Assembly: GCA_021414115.1 (NCBI GenBank)
Contig: JAIOPD010000041.1
Location: 1 to 38,291, forward strand
DNA length: 38,291 nt
Source of the DNA: Planctomycetia bacterium
GTDB taxonomy: Bacteria > Planctomycetota > Planctomycetia > Pirellulales > UBA1268
Reading direction: 5' to 3'
A program made the translations under genes and the position numbers. The notes below the pieces were generated by a model. That model saw only the letters and a list, made by a program, of their open reading frames with translations. It was not told where the DNA came from and ran no database searches. This document shows positions 1,184 to 22,781 of the stretch, piece by piece. How positions within the stretch are numbered: position 1 is the first letter of the stretch; each line of letters opens with the position of its first letter.

Positions 1184-1449
1184 ATGCCCTTGGCGTTTCG
1201 ATCACTGGCGGTTACGGGTGCACGTCCATGCATACTCTCGGACGAGGAAAGCCATACGACGCGTGTGATCGGATACTTTCGGCCCCAGCAGGTTCCGCAG
1301 CACCTTCTCGACCGGACTGACGTGCCGGTTGAGCAACTGCTCGAGCACGGCCGGCTGCGAAGTGTCATCGCTCCGGCCATCCCGCTTCCCGTCAGAAAGC
1401 CCCAAGCGCGAGCGCGGGGTATACGGTCTCCACCCCAATCCGCTCCGCG
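1184..1449 (+). pseudogene. Unrecognised ORF truncated by an interspersed repeat
   Basis: An ATG at 1184 directly follows the previous stop. The first 70 residues look protein-like (for example DEESHTTRVIGYFRPQQVPQ and HLLDRTDVPVEQLLEHGRL). From about 1395 the frame enters the repeat copy and then continues antisense into folD, so the natural C-terminus and stop appear to have been lost. I do not recognise the family. The end coordinate given is where the repeat ends, not a stop codon; the open frame technically continues to 1576. Confidence 0.35.
1395..1449 (-). repeat. Interspersed palindromic repeat, half copy A
   Basis: This carries the 'R' end of the repeat family (AAGCCCCAAGCGCGAGCGCG at about 1397) followed by the inner segment with CACCCCAATCCGCTCCGC. 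The other end is missing. It abuts the folD stop codon and cuts into the preceding plus-strand ORF. Confidence 0.85.
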
Positions 1450-2352
1450 TCAGCGCTTCCCGAGGCGGAGTTCGGCGGCAAGGAGGGTGTTGGCGAGGAG
1501 CATCGCCACGGTCATCGGCCCCACGCCACCCGGCACCGGCGAGATCCATCCCGCAACCTCGCGGACCGGGCCGTAGTCGACGTCGCCCACGAGCGACCCA
1601 TCGACGCGATTGATGCCGACGTCGATCACCGCCGCGCCGGGCTTCACCATGTCGGCCGTGATCAACTTCGGGCGGCCCACCGCCGCCACCACGATGTCGG
1701 CCTGCCGCGTCAACGCGGCGATGTCGCCGGAGCGACTATGGCAAATCGTCACCGTCGCGTCACAGCCGCCGGTTTCGTCAGGCGGGCAGCCATGCGGTGG
1801 ACGCGACGCGAGCAGGAGCGCCAAAGGCTTGCCCACGATGTCGCTGCGACCCACGATCACCACGTGCTTGCCGGCAGTCGGAATCGCCGCGTCGATCAGC
1901 ATCCGTTGCACGCCGGCAGCCGTGCAGGGAACGAATCGCGGCCGACCCTGCGAGAGCAGGCCGGCATTCTCGGGATGAAAGCCGTCGACATCGCGATCGG
2001 GGGGCACCGCGTCGAGTCCGGCGACCGTGTCGACATGCGGCGGCAGTGGCAGTTGCACGAGGATGCCGTCGGCCGGACCATGTTCGTCGCGGGCGATCGC
2101 CTGGACGAGGGCCACGAGATCGGCGGTGCTCGCCGTCGCCGGCACCGCCACGACCTCGGAGTCGATGCCCACGCGGCCGGCCGCCGCCGCCTTGCTCTTC
2201 ACATACGAAGCACTCGCCGCCATGTCGCCCACGAGCACCACGACGAGCCGCGGCCGTCGGGAGAACATTTCGGCGAACGTCTCCACCTCGCTGCGAAGCG
2301 TGGTCTCGATGCGGCCCGCGAGGGCTTTGCCGTCCAGGATCGTCGCGGTCAT
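1450..2352 (-). CDS. folD: Bifunctional methylene-THF dehydrogenase / cyclohydrolase
   Basis: This cytosolic enzyme interconverts 5,10-methylene-THF, methenyl-THF and 10-formyl-THF with NADP, supplying one-carbon units. The 300-residue protein has the family hallmarks: Tyr50 and Lys54 in SYVKSKAAAAGRVGI (catalytic in the family), the QLPLP segment at 100-104, DVDGFHPENAG at 121-131, the cofactor loop VGRSDIVGKP at 167-176 and the C-terminal PVPGGVGPMTVAMLL. An extra segment of about 15 residues (183-197, SRPPHGCPPDETGGC) lies where most FolD proteins go directly from the helix to ATVTxCHS. The ATG overlaps the upstream stop (ATGA), so it is the last gene of the pyrG operon. A repeat half-copy lies directly downstream. 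Confidence 0.97.
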   Translation of the reverse strand: MTATILDGKALAGRIETTLRSEVETFAEMFSRRPRLVVVLVGDMAASASYVKSKAAAAGRVGIDSEVVAVPATASTADLVALVQAIARDEHGPADGILVQLPLPPHVDTVAGLDAVPPDRDVDGFHPENAGLLSQGRPRFVPCTAAGVQRMLIDAAIPTAGKHVVIVGRSDIVGKPLALLLASRPPHGCPPDETGGCDATVTICHSRSGDIAALTRQADIVVAAVGRPKLITADMVKPGAAVIDVGINRVDGSLVGDVDYGPVREVAGWISPVPGGVGPMTVAMLLANTLLAAELRLGKR

Positions 2353-3437
2353 GGAGCGGCCTGCGTGTGTGATTCGACCTTCTCGCCGCTCGTGCGGTCG
2401 TCGTGCGTCCACTTCTTCCACAGGGCATCGATATCGGCGGCTGCGGAGTCGCCCTCGTGCACCACGATGAGATACCGCAACGTGAGCGAGTCGCCGGCGG
2501 GAATGGTGTAGTCGCCCGTGCCCTTCGCAGCGCCGGTGAAGTCGTGCAGCCCGAACGGGTTCGCGGCGACGAGTCCGTAGTCGCGGGCATGCCAGTGCGT
2601 CGGATGCCGGAGGTTGTCGGGGTGATCGAGGATGGCGAGGCCCACCGTCCTGCCTTCGATGGGCCCCCAGTAGGCCACCCAGCGGGCCGCCTTGCCCCAC
2701 ACGTCGGCGTCAGCGTGCCCCTCGGAGTTGATGCAGTGGCCCGCGGCCCCCTTCGAGCCGTCGACGTTCGTGAGTTGAAGCTGCACGGGCACTCGTAGGC
2801 CCATCGCTCCTTCCTTCGTGTCGCCGAACGTCACCGGCCCGTGATCGGCGTGGATCGTGATCGAATAGTCGATCGTGCGGGACGTTCCCTCGCCGCCAAA
2901 AACGAGCCGCCGGGTGTCGCTGCAGACCTGCGTGCCGTCGGCTTTCATCCAGCGGTTCTTCGTCTCGATCACGCCTTCACGGCCCCCCTCGGCCTTCACG
3001 AGCGTGGCGTGCTCGATCCGGTTGTCGGCCCGCAACTCCGGCTTTTTGGCAGCCGGGTGCGAGGCCCAGAAGTCGACGCCATTGACGTTGCCGTGCGTGA
3101 ACCAGATCGACTCGTGATGAGGATGGTCGTGCGGTTCGCCGGCGACCCCTTCGACCATCGGCCACGACCGCGTCATGGCGACGCCGCCGTGGCCGAGCAC
3201 GGGAAACAGAATCGGCTTGCGGTGCCCCGCGAAGACATACGACGTGTAGGGCTTTCCGTCGATCGCGACATCGATGCGATCGTCGTGCTTCTCGACCGTC
3301 ACCTCCGCCGTCGCGATTGCCGGCAGGGCGGCCAGCAGCAGTGCAAGGGCAGACCGCCAGGAACTCCGGGGTTGGTAAGCGTGCCACCCGTCTACCCGTC
3401 GCTCTCGCTCCGGGCTTCCTGGACGCGCAGCGATCAT
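2349..3437 (-). CDS. Secreted DUF6807 / 'PmoA family' protein
   Basis: A 362-residue exported protein. Residues 27-44 form a hydrophobic signal segment (SALALLLAALPAIATA) with a cleavage site before Glu45. The mature part contains GHRKPILFPVLGHGG, HDHPHHESIWFTHGNVNGVD and DYGLVAANPFGLHDF, the pattern of DUF6807 proteins, which databases often label 'PmoA family' although they are not methane monooxygenase subunits. The His-rich HDHPHHES run could bind metal (inference). The only in-frame start is the ATG at 3437, which overlaps the upstream stop as ATGA. Codons 7-18 or so are a copy of the interspersed repeat (GSPERERRVDGWHA), so the repeat provides the N-region of the signal peptide. Its own stop overlaps the folD start. 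Biochemical role unknown. Confidence 0.85.
   Translation of the reverse strand: MIAARPGSPERERRVDGWHAYQPRSSWRSALALLLAALPAIATAEVTVEKHDDRIDVAIDGKPYTSYVFAGHRKPILFPVLGHGGVAMTRSWPMVEGVAGEPHDHPHHESIWFTHGNVNGVDFWASHPAAKKPELRADNRIEHATLVKAEGGREGVIETKNRWMKADGTQVCSDTRRLVFGGEGTSRTIDYSITIHADHGPVTFGDTKEGAMGLRVPVQLQLTNVDGSKGAAGHCINSEGHADADVWGKAARWVAYWGPIEGRTVGLAILDHPDNLRHPTHWHARDYGLVAANPFGLHDFTGAAKGTGDYTIPAGDSLTLRYLIVVHEGDSAAADIDALWKKWTHDDRTSGEKVESHTQAAP
3382..3420 (-). repeat. Interspersed palindromic repeat, half copy B (inside a CDS)
   Basis: The 'L' end of the repeat family, read on the minus strand as GGAAGCCCGGAGCGAGAGCG then ACGGGTAGACGGGTGG. It lies in frame between the start codon and signal-peptide core of the DUF6807 gene. 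Confidence 0.85.
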
Positions 3438-3739
3438 TTCCGGGCCTCGACGTACATCGTCCGGAGCTGGTGCTGGACCTCCTCGAGCAATCGCTTCTCG
3501 TCGGTGGAGAGATTGCCGGCGGTCTTCTGTCCGAGCATGTCGAGCGTGTCGATGAAGTGCTTCGCCGTGGGGATATTGGTGATCGCCTGCTTCGTGATCG
3601 GGTTCGGGATCCGCCCCAGCGCCATGAGCGCCTGCGTGAAGAGCGTATGCACCAGAAAATCGAAGGTCGCCGGAGGCATCTTGCCCGGGGCGGGCAGGTC
3701 ATCGCCGGAGTCCTCGGTCAGCGCCGCATCGTCACTCAT
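3434..3739 (-). CDS. DUF1844 domain protein
   Basis: A small protein of 101 residues. After an acidic, probably disordered N-terminus it carries TFDFLVHTLFTQALMALGRI, PNPITKQAITNIPTAKHFID and LDMLGQKTAGNLSTDEKRLL, which fit DUF1844, a short all-helical family found across several bacterial phyla and of unknown function. The start chosen is the ATG at 3739, preceded by a GAGGAG-like ribosome-binding site; a longer frame would overlap pyrG. It lies 28 bases after the pyrG stop, and its stop overlaps the next start, so it is cotranscribed with pyrG and probably translationally coupled to the DUF6807 gene. Confidence 0.9.
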   Translation of the reverse strand: MSDDAALTEDSGDDLPAPGKMPPATFDFLVHTLFTQALMALGRIPNPITKQAITNIPTAKHFIDTLDMLGQKTAGNLSTDEKRLLEEVQHQLRTMYVEARK

Positions 3740-3767: not shown

Positions 3768-5474
<1,707 letters not shown>

Positions 5475-6626: not shown

Positions 6627-6735
6627 AGGAAAGCCCGGAGCGCGAGCGACGGGTAACCGCGTGGATCGTGCGGAGGCGCTGCGGAGCGAGTTGGGGTGGA
6701 GGGCGTTTTCCCCGCGCTCGCGCTTGGGGCTTCCC
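6627..6735 (+). repeat. Interspersed palindromic repeat, full copy C
   Basis: A full-length copy between the convergent aroF and SYLF-protein genes. The left end (AAGCCCGGAGCGCGAGCGAC) and right end (CGCGCTCGCGCTTGGGGCTT) are imperfect inverted repeats of about 25 bp separated by about 60 bases containing GCGAGTTGGGGTGGAG. Folded, it could act as a bidirectional terminator for the two convergent genes (inference). Confidence 0.9.
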
Positions 6736-6768
6736 GACGGAAGAGCCCACAAAAATCTGGTGACGTGA

Positions 6769-7745: not shown

Positions 7746-7852
7746 GGAAGCCCGGAGCGCGAGCGACGGGTAGACGGGCGGCGACCTCAAGGGCGGTGTG
7801 GAGCGGGTTGGGGTGGAAAACGTATTCCCCGCGCTGGCGCTTGGGGCTTCCC
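7746..7852 (+). repeat. Interspersed palindromic repeat, full copy D
   Basis: Full-length copy: left end GGAAGCCCGGAGCGCGAGCG at 7746, middle GTGGAGCGGGTTGGGGTGG, right end CGCTGGCGCTTGGGGCTTCC ending at 7852. It lies upstream of the SYLF-protein start and next to copy E. Confidence 0.93.
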
Positions 7853-7876: not shown

Positions 7877-7965
7877 GGAAGCCCGGAGCGCGAGCGACGG
7901 GTAAACGGGTGGCGACCTCAAGGGTGATGTGGAGCGGGTTGGGGTGGAAGACGCCTTCCCACGGG
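7877..7965 (+). repeat. Interspersed palindromic repeat, copy E (right end lost)
   Basis: Left end GGAAGCCCGGAGCGCGAGCG at 7877, then the same middle as copy D (CGACCTCAAGGGTGATGTGG). The canonical right end is absent; the sequence diverges at about 7955 just before the fucosyltransferase stop codon at 7970. Confidence 0.88.
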
Positions 7966-16103: not shown

Positions 16104-16147
16104 CGGGTCGCCACCCGTATACCCGTCGCTCGCGCTCCGGGCTTCCC
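16104..16147 (-). repeat. Interspersed palindromic repeat, half copy J1
   Basis: L end read on the minus strand: GGGAAGCCCGGAGCGCGAGC followed by GACGGGTATACGGGTGGCGA. It lies upstream of the third small module. Confidence 0.9.
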
Positions 16148-16203
16148 GAAAAGGAATGCCGGCCTCTCCGCGGGCTTCCCGAAAAGGAATGCCGGCCTCT
16201 CCG
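16139..16203. repeat. 33-bp tandem duplication between two repeat halves
   Basis: The unit starting GGGCTTCCCGAAAAGGAATG (at 16139 and again at 16172, ending GCCGGCCTCTCCG) is present twice without visible mismatch. It includes the last bases of copy J1, so the duplication arose after, or together with, the repeat. Confidence 0.92.
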
Positions 16204-16264
16204 TCAGGAAGCCCCAAGCGCGAGCGCGGGGAATACGGCCCTCCACGCCAACCCGCTCCGCGCC
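16204..16264 (-). repeat. Interspersed palindromic repeat, half copy J2
   Basis: R end AGGAAGCCCCAAGCGCGAGC followed by GCGGGGAATACGGCCCTCC and ACGCCAACCCGCTCCGC. It abuts the stop codon of the glycosyltransferase gene at 16278. Confidence 0.9.
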
Positions 16265-18910: not shown

Positions 18911-20818
18911 GTGTGCGGCATCTGCGGAGTCATTAGCGCGGAGCGAGGCCGGGTGGAACCCGCCGTGCGGCGGATGATGCAGGCGATGATTCATCGCGGC
19001 CCCGACGACGACGGCTACGAGGAGCTGCCGATGGGCGGCGATGAATCGGGCCCCGTCGCCGGATTCGGTTTTCGCCGGCTGTCGATCCTCGACCTCACCT
19101 CGGCGGGCCATCAGCCGATCTTCAACTCCTTCACTGGCGACTGCCTGATCTTCAACGGTGAGATCTACAACTTCCGCTCCCTGCGGTCCGAGTTGCAGCT
19201 CCGCGGGACCCTCTTTCGCGGCACGAGCGATTCGGAGGTGCTCCTCCAGGCCCTGTCCACGTGGGGCGAGGCCGCGCTCGAGAAGCTCCAGGGCATGTAT
19301 GCCTTCGCCTTTTACGAGGCCAAGACCCGCCGCATCCTGCTGGCACGCGATCCGCTGGGCATCAAGCCGCTGTATGTCGCCAGCCTTCCCAATCGGTTCG
19401 TGTTTGCGAGTGAAATCCGGTCGGTCCGGGTATCCGGTCTCGTCCCGGATGACCTCGACATGGGCGGCATCGCCGGCATGCTGGCCTACGGTGCGGTCCA
19501 GTCGCCGCGCACGATCTACGAACACATCCGCTCGTTCCCGGCTGGCAACTCGCAGTGGCTCGATGCGGGCGTAGTCTCCGGCAGCCCGCAAGCCCCATCC
19601 CGCCGATATTGGAACTTCCCCGCCCACCCGCAGACCGCCACCGACGTCCCGACCGCGGCCGCCCATGTGCGGCAACTGCTGCACGATTCGGTGCTCCGCC
19701 ACCTCGTCGCCGACGTACCGGTGGGTGTGTTCCTCTCGGCGGGGATCGACAGCACGATAATCGCTTCGTGCGCCCGGGAGTTCACGCCGCAGGTGACGGC
19801 CTTCACGGTCGGCTTTGGCGCCGTGCATGGGCAGGATGAAGTGACGCTGGCGTCGGAGACCGCCAGGGCGCTTGGCATGAAGCACGTGGCCGTTGAACTC
19901 GACGCGAACAACATGCCCGAGAAATGGCAAGACTGGATCGCCGGCATGGATTCGCCGAGCATCGACGGCTTCAACACCTACGTCGTGAGCCGTAGGTTGG
20001 CGGCCGAGGGAGTGGTGGTCGGCCTGTCGGGCCTGGGCGCCGACGAACTCTTTGGCGGGTATCAGACGTTCGACCGGGCGCCGCGGTGGTCGAAGCTGCT
20101 CCGAGCAATGTCGTTCATCCCATCCGGGATGAGAACCAGCGTGATTCGAAGGCTCGGTGAACTCGACGGCCGCACCGGAGCTTTCGAGAAGCTTGCCGAC
20201 CTCGTCGCCGGGGATCCGAGCGTGGCCGGGATCGCGCTCTCGCTACGGCGGGCGATGCCCAACCGGAGCCTCAGTGCGCTCGGCTTCTATCCAGGTTGCA
20301 CGGGCCTGGGTGTCAACTATCTCGATGCCCGTTCCGACACCGGCGCCGCCGCCACGCTCGACGGCGACGGCTTCAACACGGTCGCCCGCATGGAGATGAC
20401 CCACTACATGGGCGACACGCTCCTGCGCGACACCGACACCAACAGCATGCGGCAGTCGCTCGAGGTCCGCGTGCCGTTCCTCGACACTCCCGTCGTCGAC
20501 TATGTCTCGTCGCTGCCCGGCCACATCAAGCGACATGCGAGATGTTCGTCCAAGTCGTTACTTCGGATGGCGTGCGCTAAGGCGATCCGCGACGACGTCG
20601 CCCGGCGCCCCAAGACCGGTTTTACACTGCCGATGGGCGACTGGATGCGGGGAGAAATGCGGGAGTCGTGCGAGGCCGCCATCGGCCAGCTCGAACGTGT
20701 CTCGTTCCTGGAGGGTGCCGAAGTCCGGCGGATCTGGAACTCTTTCGTAACCGACAGCCGGTCGGTGCACTGGTCGCGGCCGCTGGCGCTCGTGGTGCTC
20801 GGCTCCGCCATCGGCTAG
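18911..20818 (+). CDS. asnB: Asparagine synthetase-like glutamine amidotransferase (copy 1)
   Basis: A 635-residue class II amidotransferase/ATP-dependent synthetase. It starts at the GTG at 18911, so that Cys2 (CGICG) becomes the N-terminal nucleophile. Glutaminase motifs: RGPDDDGY (29-36), FRRLSILDL (54-62), IFNGEIYNF (80-88), GTSDSEVLLQA (104-114). The synthetase PP-loop at 276-281 reads SAGIDS, with Ala in place of the usual Gly of SGGxDS. Later motifs are GLGADELFGGY and RVPFLDTPVVDY. Members near glycan loci often amidate sugars or act in polymer assembly and do not make asparagine, so the substrate is open. It is 31 bases upstream of a paralogue. Confidence 0.93.
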   Translation: MCGICGVISAERGRVEPAVRRMMQAMIHRGPDDDGYEELPMGGDESGPVAGFGFRRLSILDLTSAGHQPIFNSFTGDCLIFNGEIYNFRSLRSELQLRGTLFRGTSDSEVLLQALSTWGEAALEKLQGMYAFAFYEAKTRRILLARDPLGIKPLYVASLPNRFVFASEIRSVRVSGLVPDDLDMGGIAGMLAYGAVQSPRTIYEHIRSFPAGNSQWLDAGVVSGSPQAPSRRYWNFPAHPQTATDVPTAAAHVRQLLHDSVLRHLVADVPVGVFLSAGIDSTIIASCAREFTPQVTAFTVGFGAVHGQDEVTLASETARALGMKHVAVELDANNMPEKWQDWIAGMDSPSIDGFNTYVVSRRLAAEGVVVGLSGLGADELFGGYQTFDRAPRWSKLLRAMSFIPSGMRTSVIRRLGELDGRTGAFEKLADLVAGDPSVAGIALSLRRAMPNRSLSALGFYPGCTGLGVNYLDARSDTGAAATLDGDGFNTVARMEMTHYMGDTLLRDTDTNSMRQSLEVRVPFLDTPVVDYVSSLPGHIKRHARCSSKSLLRMACAKAIRDDVARRPKTGFTLPMGDWMRGEMRESCEAAIGQLERVSFLEGAEVRRIWNSFVTDSRSVHWSRPLALVVLGSAIG

Positions 20819-20849: not shown

Positions 20850-22781
20850 ATGTGCGGTATCGCTGGCGTCCTTAGTCACACGTCAGGGGCCATTGAGCCC
20901 GCCGTGCGCCGGATGATGCGGGCGATGGTCCACCGCGGCCCCGACGACGAGGGCTACGAGCATTTTTCGCTGGGCGTTGATTCCGGCGGACCGGCGGTCG
21001 GCTTCGGCTTCCGCCGCCTGGCGATCATGGACCTCTCGCCGCTCGGCCATCAGCCGATGATCAATCAGGCCACCGGCGATGCCATCATCTTCAACGGCGA
21101 GATCTACAACTTCCTGGAGATCCGCCGCCGGCTCGAGGGCCTCGGCTGCGAGTTCCGCTCCACGGGCGACACCGAAGTGTTGCTCCAGGCGCTCTCGCAG
21201 TGGGGCGAGAAGGCGCTCGACGAACTCGACGGCATGTTCGCCTTCGCCTTCTACCATGCGGCCTCGCGGCGGGTGCTGCTCGCCCGCGACCCGCTGGGCA
21301 TCAAGCCGCTCTATATCGCCCGCGCGGGCGGAGCCATCGTGTTTGCCAGCGAGGTGCAGGGCGTGCTGGCCTCGGGGCTCGTCCCCGACGATCTCGACCC
21401 CGCGGGCATCGCCGGCTTCCTGGCATATGGCTCGCCACAGGATCCCCTCACGGTCCACAAGCACATCCGCTCGATGCCCGCGGCCACCCTCGAATGGCTC
21501 GACGCCGGCTCGCTGGCCGGTCGCAGCCCAAGTCGCCGTCGCTACTGGCGGCTGCCCGCGACGCAGCCCTGGTGTGCCGAAGCGACCGCCGTTGGCCGTC
21601 TGCGGGAAGAACTTGCCGACTCGGTCCGACGGCAATGCGCTTCCGATGTGCCGCTCGGCGTGTTTTTGTCGGGCGGCATCGACAGCGCCACGATGGCAGC
21701 GCTGGCGGAGCCGGATCAGGGGCCGCCCCAGACATTTGCGGTTGGCTATGAGATCCCCGGGATGGCCGACGAGACGGCTGCCGCCGCCGAAACCGCCGAG
21801 TTTCTCGGCACGCGGCATTTTCAGACAATCGTGGACAACGACTGGGCCATCATGCAGTGGACGGAGTGGCTGAAGGCCGCTGACCGCCCGAGCATCGATG
21901 GCCTTAACACCTACATCGTCAGCGGCGCCGTCAAGGATCGCGACATCACCGTGGCCCTGTCGGGCCTCGGGGCCGACGAACTCTTCGGCGGCTATCCGTC
22001 GTTCCGCAGAGTCCCGCGGGCACGGCTGGCGCTGGCGGCGATCGCCTGGCTGCCCCGGGGCCTCCGCCGGGCGGTCGCTTCGAAAGTGCTCGCCGCGATT
22101 CCGGCCCGGAGGCGGGCCAAGGCGATCGACCTCGTCTCGAGCGGCACATCGGCCGTCGAACTCACGGCGCTTTCCCGCCGGGTGATGAGCGATGATTCAA
22201 TGCGGCAGTTCGGCCTCGACGCCCGGGCGCTTGGGCTCTCGCCCCTCTACTTGGCCCCCGAAGCCCACGACGTGTTTGCCCACACTCCCCGCAACTCATT
22301 CGAAGGCGTCTCGCAGGCCGAGTTGTTTCTGTACATGAACAACACGCTCCTGCGGGATTCCGACATCAACAGCATGGCCCACTCGCTGGAAGTCCGCGTG
22401 CCGTTCCTGGGTCGGCGGCTCGTGGATTACGCCGGCAGCCTGCCGAACTCCGTCCGCCATCCGAAAGCTGCTGCGCCCAAACACCTGTTGCGCCGGGCCA
22501 TCGCCGACAAGCTCCCGCCATCGGTGTTCAATCGGCCGAAGACCGGGTTTACGCTGCCGTTCGGTGCGTGGATGTTTGGCCCGATTCGGGACCAGTGCGA
22601 GGCCGCGATCGACGTTCTGCGCACCTGCTCGGCGCTCGACGGTTCGGCTGTCCGTCGGGCCTGGGACCGCTACGAATCGCACCCGGGCCAAACCCACTGG
22701 TCGCGGCCCATGACGCTCGTGGTGCTCGGGAGTTACCTCGCCAAGCAGACGAACGTCTCGGGGCACGAAGCGACAGGCTAA
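20850..22781 (+). CDS. asnB: Asparagine synthetase-like glutamine amidotransferase (copy 2)
   Basis: A 643-residue paralogue of the preceding gene with long identical blocks (for example IEPAVRRMM/VEPAVRRMM, FNGEIYNF, LLARDPLGIKPLY). Cys2 is the expected nucleophile. The PP-loop is canonical: SGGIDS at 274-279. GLGADELFGGYPSFRRVPRA and KTGFTLPFGAWM follow. The start ATG is preceded by GAGGCAG. Tandem duplication followed by divergence is evident. Together with the glycan locus across the IS630 remnant, an amidation role in surface polysaccharide is plausible; true asparagine synthesis is the alternative. Confidence 0.94.
   Translation: MCGIAGVLSHTSGAIEPAVRRMMRAMVHRGPDDEGYEHFSLGVDSGGPAVGFGFRRLAIMDLSPLGHQPMINQATGDAIIFNGEIYNFLEIRRRLEGLGCEFRSTGDTEVLLQALSQWGEKALDELDGMFAFAFYHAASRRVLLARDPLGIKPLYIARAGGAIVFASEVQGVLASGLVPDDLDPAGIAGFLAYGSPQDPLTVHKHIRSMPAATLEWLDAGSLAGRSPSRRRYWRLPATQPWCAEATAVGRLREELADSVRRQCASDVPLGVFLSGGIDSATMAALAEPDQGPPQTFAVGYEIPGMADETAAAAETAEFLGTRHFQTIVDNDWAIMQWTEWLKAADRPSIDGLNTYIVSGAVKDRDITVALSGLGADELFGGYPSFRRVPRARLALAAIAWLPRGLRRAVASKVLAAIPARRRAKAIDLVSSGTSAVELTALSRRVMSDDSMRQFGLDARALGLSPLYLAPEAHDVFAHTPRNSFEGVSQAELFLYMNNTLLRDSDINSMAHSLEVRVPFLGRRLVDYAGSLPNSVRHPKAAAPKHLLRRAIADKLPPSVFNRPKTGFTLPFGAWMFGPIRDQCEAAIDVLRTCSALDGSAVRRAWDRYESHPGQTHWSRPMTLVVLGSYLAKQTNVSGHEATG

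Follow-up and report, generated by a model that had tools for sequence, protein, structure and literature searches.

A REP-type palindromic repeat in the predicted signal peptide of a planctomycete DUF6807 gene

Repetitive extragenic palindromes (REPs) are extragenic by name, and N-terminal cases are commonly dismissed as misannotated starts. Both REPs inside genes and the Rickettsia palindromic elements (RPEs) are already known, and the DUF6807 case described here adds to them an overlap at the gene start and an empty site. According to the parts of PMC3733652 that treat intragenic REPs, such copies belong to the GTAG and CGTC super-families, to Opitutus terrae, to RPE-4 and RPE-6 of Rickettsia conorii and to others; many encode 20-30 residues, some of them at N- or C-termini, and different REPs lie near the same recB site in two Xanthomonas species. 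The same parts warn that many N-terminal REPs possibly reflect miscalled starts. Those elements and ours are alike as palindromes within ORFs, and the recB pair resembles the two different elements found in DUF6807 genes; unlike them, the present case involves another repeat family, with a class-3-like transposase, an ATGA overlap and an empty site. RPE-1, as presented in sections of PMC3733652 and PMC10969869, is likewise a palindromic mobile element in frame within protein genes, and N-terminal RPE-1 cases are reported there as expressed. However, RPEs are about 150 bp long and often genic, whereas the window's family was scored intergenic in 114 of 118 copies of a non-random census sample and the target here is a signal peptide.

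In Pseudomonas, inverted REP ends form REPINs that make one long hairpin and have a single cognate RAYT, in the accounts given in portions of PMC3116915 and PMC6006769. The elements described below are alike in these respects and, set against the portion of PMC3116915, unlike in sequence, host phylum and transposase class. The class 3 TnpA-Y1 proteins, said to be rare and to have received little attention, occur mainly in Planctomycetes and combine a HuH motif and a Y----Q signature with high-copy, atypical flanking palindromes, as set out in the class 3 passages of PMC6006769. Among the abstracts and extracts returned by a literature search for REPs at stop codons or in signal peptides, no directly relevant paper was found.

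The sequence analyzed here, called the window, is the whole 38,291-nt stretch of contig JAIOPD010000041.1 from assembly GCA_021414115.1, a metagenome-assembled contig from an uncultured freshwater Planctomycetia bacterium; the assembly, referred to below as G000, has a size of 4.35 Mb. A DUF1844-DUF6807 gene pair is flanked in it by CTP synthase and FolD genes on the same strand. The closest orthologue of the DUF6807 gene is found in genome G014 (protein 84% identical), and the features of the locus are as follows.

3434..3739, minus strand: DUF1844 (PF08899) gene, upstream; E 8.4e-25, start picked by codon score.
2349..3437, minus strand: DUF6807 (PF14100) gene with the repeat-bearing predicted signal peptide; 362 aa, E 5.7e-72.
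3434..3437, minus strand: ATGA overlap of 4 nt between the DUF1844 stop and the DUF6807 start; conserved among relatives.
3362..3433, minus strand: inserted block relative to G014, from abutting blastn segments and global alignment.
3383..3419, minus strand: recognizable REP end, a type A half element coding for GSPERERRVDGW, from the repeat listing, genome matches and copy alignment.
3360..3419, minus strand: possible decayed element of 60 nt, its extent tentative, starting with GGAA and ending with TTCC.
3306..3350, minus strand: signal-peptide hydrophobic core ALALLLAALPAIATA, common to G014, from sequence comparison.

The initial annotation had named ATG 3437 as the sole possible start of the DUF6807 gene, overlapping the upstream stop in an ATGA, and both statements hold, the first for standard start codons ahead of the signal core. 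The DUF1844 ORF ends at 3434 with 4 nt in common; in this frame ATG, GTG and TTG are all absent upstream of 3437 as far as the previous stop, and equally from the codons that separate 3437 from the hydrophobic core. The first standard start after ATG 3437 is GTG 3302 (codon 46), past the signal core, and no standard start downstream of 3437 would preserve the signal peptide. Junctions in relatives were scored by a script that takes the earliest in-frame start from -6 to +60 nt of the DUF1844 stop, applied to junctions with a placeable stop, and the -4 overlap offset was found at 30 of the 36 resolvable ones (13/15 in the genus and 17/21 in the family). Considering that the start-stop overlap is conserved at so many junctions, the sequences argue strongly, though indirectly, for ATG 3437 as the true start, with the repeat having landed downstream of it, and translation would then initiate at this codon. 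It is noted that the FolD start chosen by codon score also ATGA-overlaps the DUF6807 gene (window 2349-2352), and three consecutive genes are therefore chained by 4-nt overlaps.

Comparison with G014 delimits the inserted DNA. In G014 the same ATGA overlap is followed at once by the signal core, giving an N-terminus of MTTRWSALALLMAALPAIVTA versus MIAARPGSPERERRVDGWHAYQPRSSWRSALALLLAALPAIATA in the window. Two blastn segments meet in G014 at 4953 / 4957 and leave window 3362-3433 unmatched, while the flanks of this block are syntenic with G014 at 92.8% and 87.2% identity. The block measures 72 nt in the window versus 3 nt in G014, a net difference of 69 nt or 23 codons that begins directly behind the shared ATGA and keeps the frame; an in-frame insertion against an orthologue that lacks it is also a feature of RPEs. 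Codons 7-18 (3419-3384, the GSPERERRVDGW segment) lie within the 37-nt repeat copy, and recognizable repeat accounts for 37 of the 69 added nt. The stretch that runs from GGAA to TTCC (3419-3360) may be a whole element that has decayed. It folds with its ends paired at -22.4 kcal/mol, no better than shuffles (z -1.1). No target-site duplication around the insertion was found by eye in the window/G014 alignment.

Among 40 orthologous loci (19 from the genus, the window's included, and 21 from the family, with L048 lacking its 5' end), the repeat occurs at the DUF6807 junction in one, the window's own, and the nearest outgroups have short, unrelated n-regions. This count, together with the empty, in-frame site in G014, refutes the possibility considered with the initial annotation that the sequence is ancestral coding DNA common to all orthologues. 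The in-frame half copy that the annotation placed after the start is likewise real, the full element being about 106 nt long with the left end only recognizable here. Its span of 3382-3437 differs from that of the inserted block, which runs from about 3362 to 3433 and exceeds the repeat match. The alignments thus support a DNA-level reading in which a repeat was inserted into the DUF6807 gene.

The repeat belongs to a large family. The 3383-3419 stretch has many matches in its own genome, mostly at 91-98% identity over about 37-47 nt, and its 26-base core (≤3 mismatches) occurs in G000 in 156 forward and 166 reverse copies. Since these 322 copies compare with 0+0 for the reversed pattern of the core, a chance match is excluded. 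Alignment of 44 copies gives a full-length element (about 106 nt) whose two similar inverted ends, type A (GGAAGCCCGGAGCGCGAGCGACGGGT) and type B (GGAAGCCCCAAGCGCGAGCGCGGGG), enclose a variable middle. The hairpin of a REPIN is present, with type A and type B ends inverted and the copy at 7746-7851 folding end to end. Other copies in the window are listed below.

1380..1446, plus strand: copy of the type B end, located at the folD 3' terminus and at the break of G014 synteny, from the repeat listing and blastn.
6628..6741, plus strand: full element with its two ends, past the DAHP synthase gene, from the repeat listing and copy alignment.
7746..7851, plus strand: intact 106-nt REPIN; ssDNA fold of -30.6 kcal/mol, z -3.7, 1 of 200 shuffles as good.
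7877..7913, plus strand: type A end of a third element, adjoining the 7746 copy, from the repeat listing.
16110..16146, minus strand: type A end copy with a type B end nearby at 16192-16258, from the repeat listing.

A 24-base type A pattern has at least one match in 11 of the 22 genus genomes, with 332 copies in G000, 127 in G014, 142 in G056 and 97 in G065, and 0-3 in the other genomes. We identify the repeat as one end of a REP/REPIN, a short palindromic element present in high copy number and chiefly outside genes. The GTAG/GGAG tetranucleotide at the hairpin foot is absent from the aligned copies, in which the ends begin with GGAAGCCC. In the REP descriptions taken from PMC6006769, this tetranucleotide is the mark of the classical GTAG family and class 3 REPs likewise lack GT[AG]G; the missing foot therefore excludes only the classical GTAG family and not REPs at large. 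A search of the window against Rfam gave no match.

The genomic setting of the family was assessed in a census of 126 distinct copies in the examined stretches. Eight with a flank of <300 nt were dropped, and 118 could be classified. With genes called by a simple codon-score caller, 114 of the 118 copies, which form a non-random and partly clustered sample (taken from exact matches first and from low contig numbers), were scored intergenic and four intragenic, in stretches that are 79% coding DNA. The DUF6807 copy is counted among the 114, because the caller set the start of the gene at GTG 3302. All four intragenic copies lie ≤57 nt from a stop codon and appear to form C-terminal tails of predicted proteins; these tail copies are at L008 1517-1542, L058 1501-1526, L129 1428-1453 and L146 1923-1948. 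Eighteen copies fall in 5' ORF extensions, and 17 of the 18 have an ordinary start downstream of the repeat, ahead of the gene body. Only for the DUF6807 copy would use of the next start delete a signal peptide shared by orthologues, orthologues having been compared at this locus only. Gene ends that flank the copies are more often 3' (158) than 5' (68), and an excess of 3' ends is the usual REP pattern; given the non-random, clustered sample, a binomial test of these counts has indicative value only. A tight preference for the position just behind a stop was not seen, as 7 of the 158 flanking 3' ends lie within 20 nt and the copies are at a median of 134 nt from the 3' ends of genes.

The family has a candidate cognate transposase. 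A profile built from four proteins found a single match in each of 9 of the 22 genus genomes, those of G000 and G014 being G000:C100:717-1232 and G014:C8:52248-52751. Both of these genes, of which the G000 gene is single-copy, have type A and type B ends on either side. The RAYT genes of G056, G065 and G050 have REPs on their flanks, including variants particular to their own genomes, and the repeats on the flanks of the G068 gene are palindromic but unrelated, CCCAACGCCGTAAGGCGTGGG and GAGGCCTTACGGCCTTCGGCTT (L182 533-734 and 1314-1560). With the pattern used, G061, G064 and G038 gave no clear flanking repeat pair, the G038 locus (L188) having a single match on one side. In all nine proteins H95 V96 H97, Y163 and Q168 are invariant, which corresponds to an HVH motif and a Y----Q signature. 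Pfam Y1_Tnp matches eight of the nine, at E values up to 0.1 and at best 7.1e-6; the G000 protein scores 14.2 bits versus a Y1_Tnp cut-off of 23, and for this protein the REP_Tyr_transpos and IS200 models stay below cut-off too. A search of the profile against solved structures gave no match. The lead to this divergent family was a weak Y1_Tnp match in G065 between two repeat copies. A repeat without any RAYT, as an empty Pfam Y1_Tnp search in G000 had suggested, was rejected once the profile had found the family.

By its described features, the RAYT fits the published class 3 TnpA-Y1 proteins, with HuH, Y----Q, a planctomycete host and high-copy atypical flanking palindromes as in the class 3 account of PMC6006769. 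The same account gives 5'-CnGA as the class 3 foot, whereas here C(C/T)GA, judged by eye, is common 3' of the type B end, on the opposite side of the hairpin. The repeat ends around an HUH/Y1 transposase gene lend support to the term "mobile-type" that was initially applied to the repeat.

In G014, the transposase gene lies about 1.1 kb downstream of the DUF6807 gene, behind folD. The synteny of the window with G014 breaks at the repeat behind folD (window 1380-1446; L186 1-530), and contig C100 carries a second folD 3' end, behind which lie the transposase gene and then the genes in their G014 order. This break may reflect a strain mixture, a repeat-mediated rearrangement or a misjoin. The second folD end, the first 530 nt of C100, is only 96.2% identical to window 1920-1391, and for this reason C100, and with it the G000 RAYT, may come from a co-assembled sister strain.

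At the protein level, the window's n-region has 28 residues and a net charge of +3 ahead of ALALLLAAL (best 9-mer hydropathy 2.91), and that of G014 has 4 residues and a net charge of +1 (best 9-mer hydropathy 2.70). The n-regions of 12 other genus orthologues, a set that excludes G000, G014 and G068 and in which no insertion was detected, range from 0 to 25 residues, the 25 residues being those of G053. It is very likely that the repeat, lying just behind the start codon, encodes the first part of the DUF6807 export signal, and the predicted signal peptide with its repeat-derived n-region would be a working one. Against G014, the gene body has a dN/dS of 0.215, a value that gives no date for the insertion; the body is under purifying selection and the gene is useful.

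We propose that the end of a REPIN, mobilized in trans by the RAYT, was inserted behind the DUF6807 start after the split from the G014 lineage and is now coding, and we put the probability of this reading at about 0.8. It builds on the observed insertion, its frame, the conserved start position, the repeat family with its RAYT and the purifying selection on the gene body. The REPIN would be a non-autonomous palindromic element depending in trans on a single-copy HUH/Y1 transposase, which would be the agent of the insertion. After the split, the element or a half of it would have entered just behind the start codon, at a point 14 nt behind the DUF1844 stop and hence 3' of a gene, like most copies. 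The inserted DNA would have become coding because the ATGA overlap of the two genes leaves no spacer, and the frame into the hydrophobic core would have survived because the net 69 nt are divisible by three and the repeat contains no in-frame stop. The n-region would thereby have lengthened from about 4 to 28 residues, with its positive charge retained.

Other explanations have been weighed against this one. The REP could have been inserted without being translated, with a non-standard start (CTG or ATT-type) near the core and the REP acting as an RNA element only. The relevant section of PMC3733652 treats the majority of the REPs located at the 5' ends of ORFs in P. putida, C. koseri and S. 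maltophilia as non-coding, on the grounds that shorter homologues start downstream, and the ordinary start behind the repeat in 17 of the 18 5'-extended ORFs of our census points the same way. However, the DUF6807 gene offers no ATG, GTG or TTG between repeat and signal core, and its orthologues begin at the same ATGA position, ahead of the repeat, so that an untranslated REP appears unlikely. A harmful insertion, in which the long n-region and a hairpin behind the start codon lower the expression or export of DUF6807, with the copy heading for loss, seems to us equally unlikely. REPs can form stable RNA hairpins, and -22.4 kcal/mol is the minimum energy of the 60-nt block; yet that fold is no better than those of shuffled sequences, G053 has its long n-region without a detected REP, the 362-aa ORF is intact with a strong PF14100 match, and the dN/dS of 0.215, though averaged over time before the insertion, indicates constraint.

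That the extra sequence is an assembly artefact is very improbable. Repeats are prone to contig misjoins, and the window does lose G014 synteny at another repeat copy (1380-1446), with C100 continuing the G014 order, but both flanks of 3362-3433 keep their G014 synteny (92.8% and 87.2%) and the frame is preserved. A long N-terminus that is ancestral and was lost from G014 and others is the least credible of all: some relatives do have longer n-regions (25 aa in G053), but the repeat is confined to the window's own locus among the 40 (L048 lacking its 5' end), and the n-regions of the nearest outgroups are short and unrelated.

The sister species G068 carries an unrelated palindromic element in frame in its DUF6807 signal peptide. 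This element is 97 nt long (L039 1404-1500), with perfect inverted arms of 24 nt placed 49 nt apart, and the arm occurs 21+18 times in G068 (≤3 mismatches; reversed control 0+1); the DUF6807 gene of G061 is without it. The G068 case is less decisive, because a GTG inside the element could act as start. It is conceivable, but rather doubtful, that ATGA-overlapped signal-peptide n-regions are recurrent landing sites for palindromic elements, with DUF6807 hit twice independently in one genus, by the window's REP and by the G068 element. An element would there enter behind the upstream stop, meet no spacer and create a new N-terminus. A perfect 9-bp hairpin, AAGCCCCCG ... CGGGGGCTT, was also observed in G067 (L045, near 1487) directly behind the DUF6807 start, with the length unchanged versus G062.

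Returning to the proposed REPIN insertion, the locus offers a clean and testable example of a REP becoming coding, with the gene start fixed by the overlap and the empty site visible in a close relative. The case suggests a rule to be sought elsewhere, namely an overlapping junction, a tolerant signal-peptide n-region and a length divisible by three. It also connects a planctomycete REP family, from a genus that is uncultured, with an HUH/Y1 transposase that shows class 3 features.

Two further observations were made in the window. A tRNA-Cys gene (anticodon GCA) lies at 631-696, in a stretch without other gene-like ORFs. The adjacent genes at 18953-20818 and 20850-22781 share long direct repeats with about 73-83% DNA identity; the former encodes an asparagine synthase (Pfam), and the pair is a tandem duplication.
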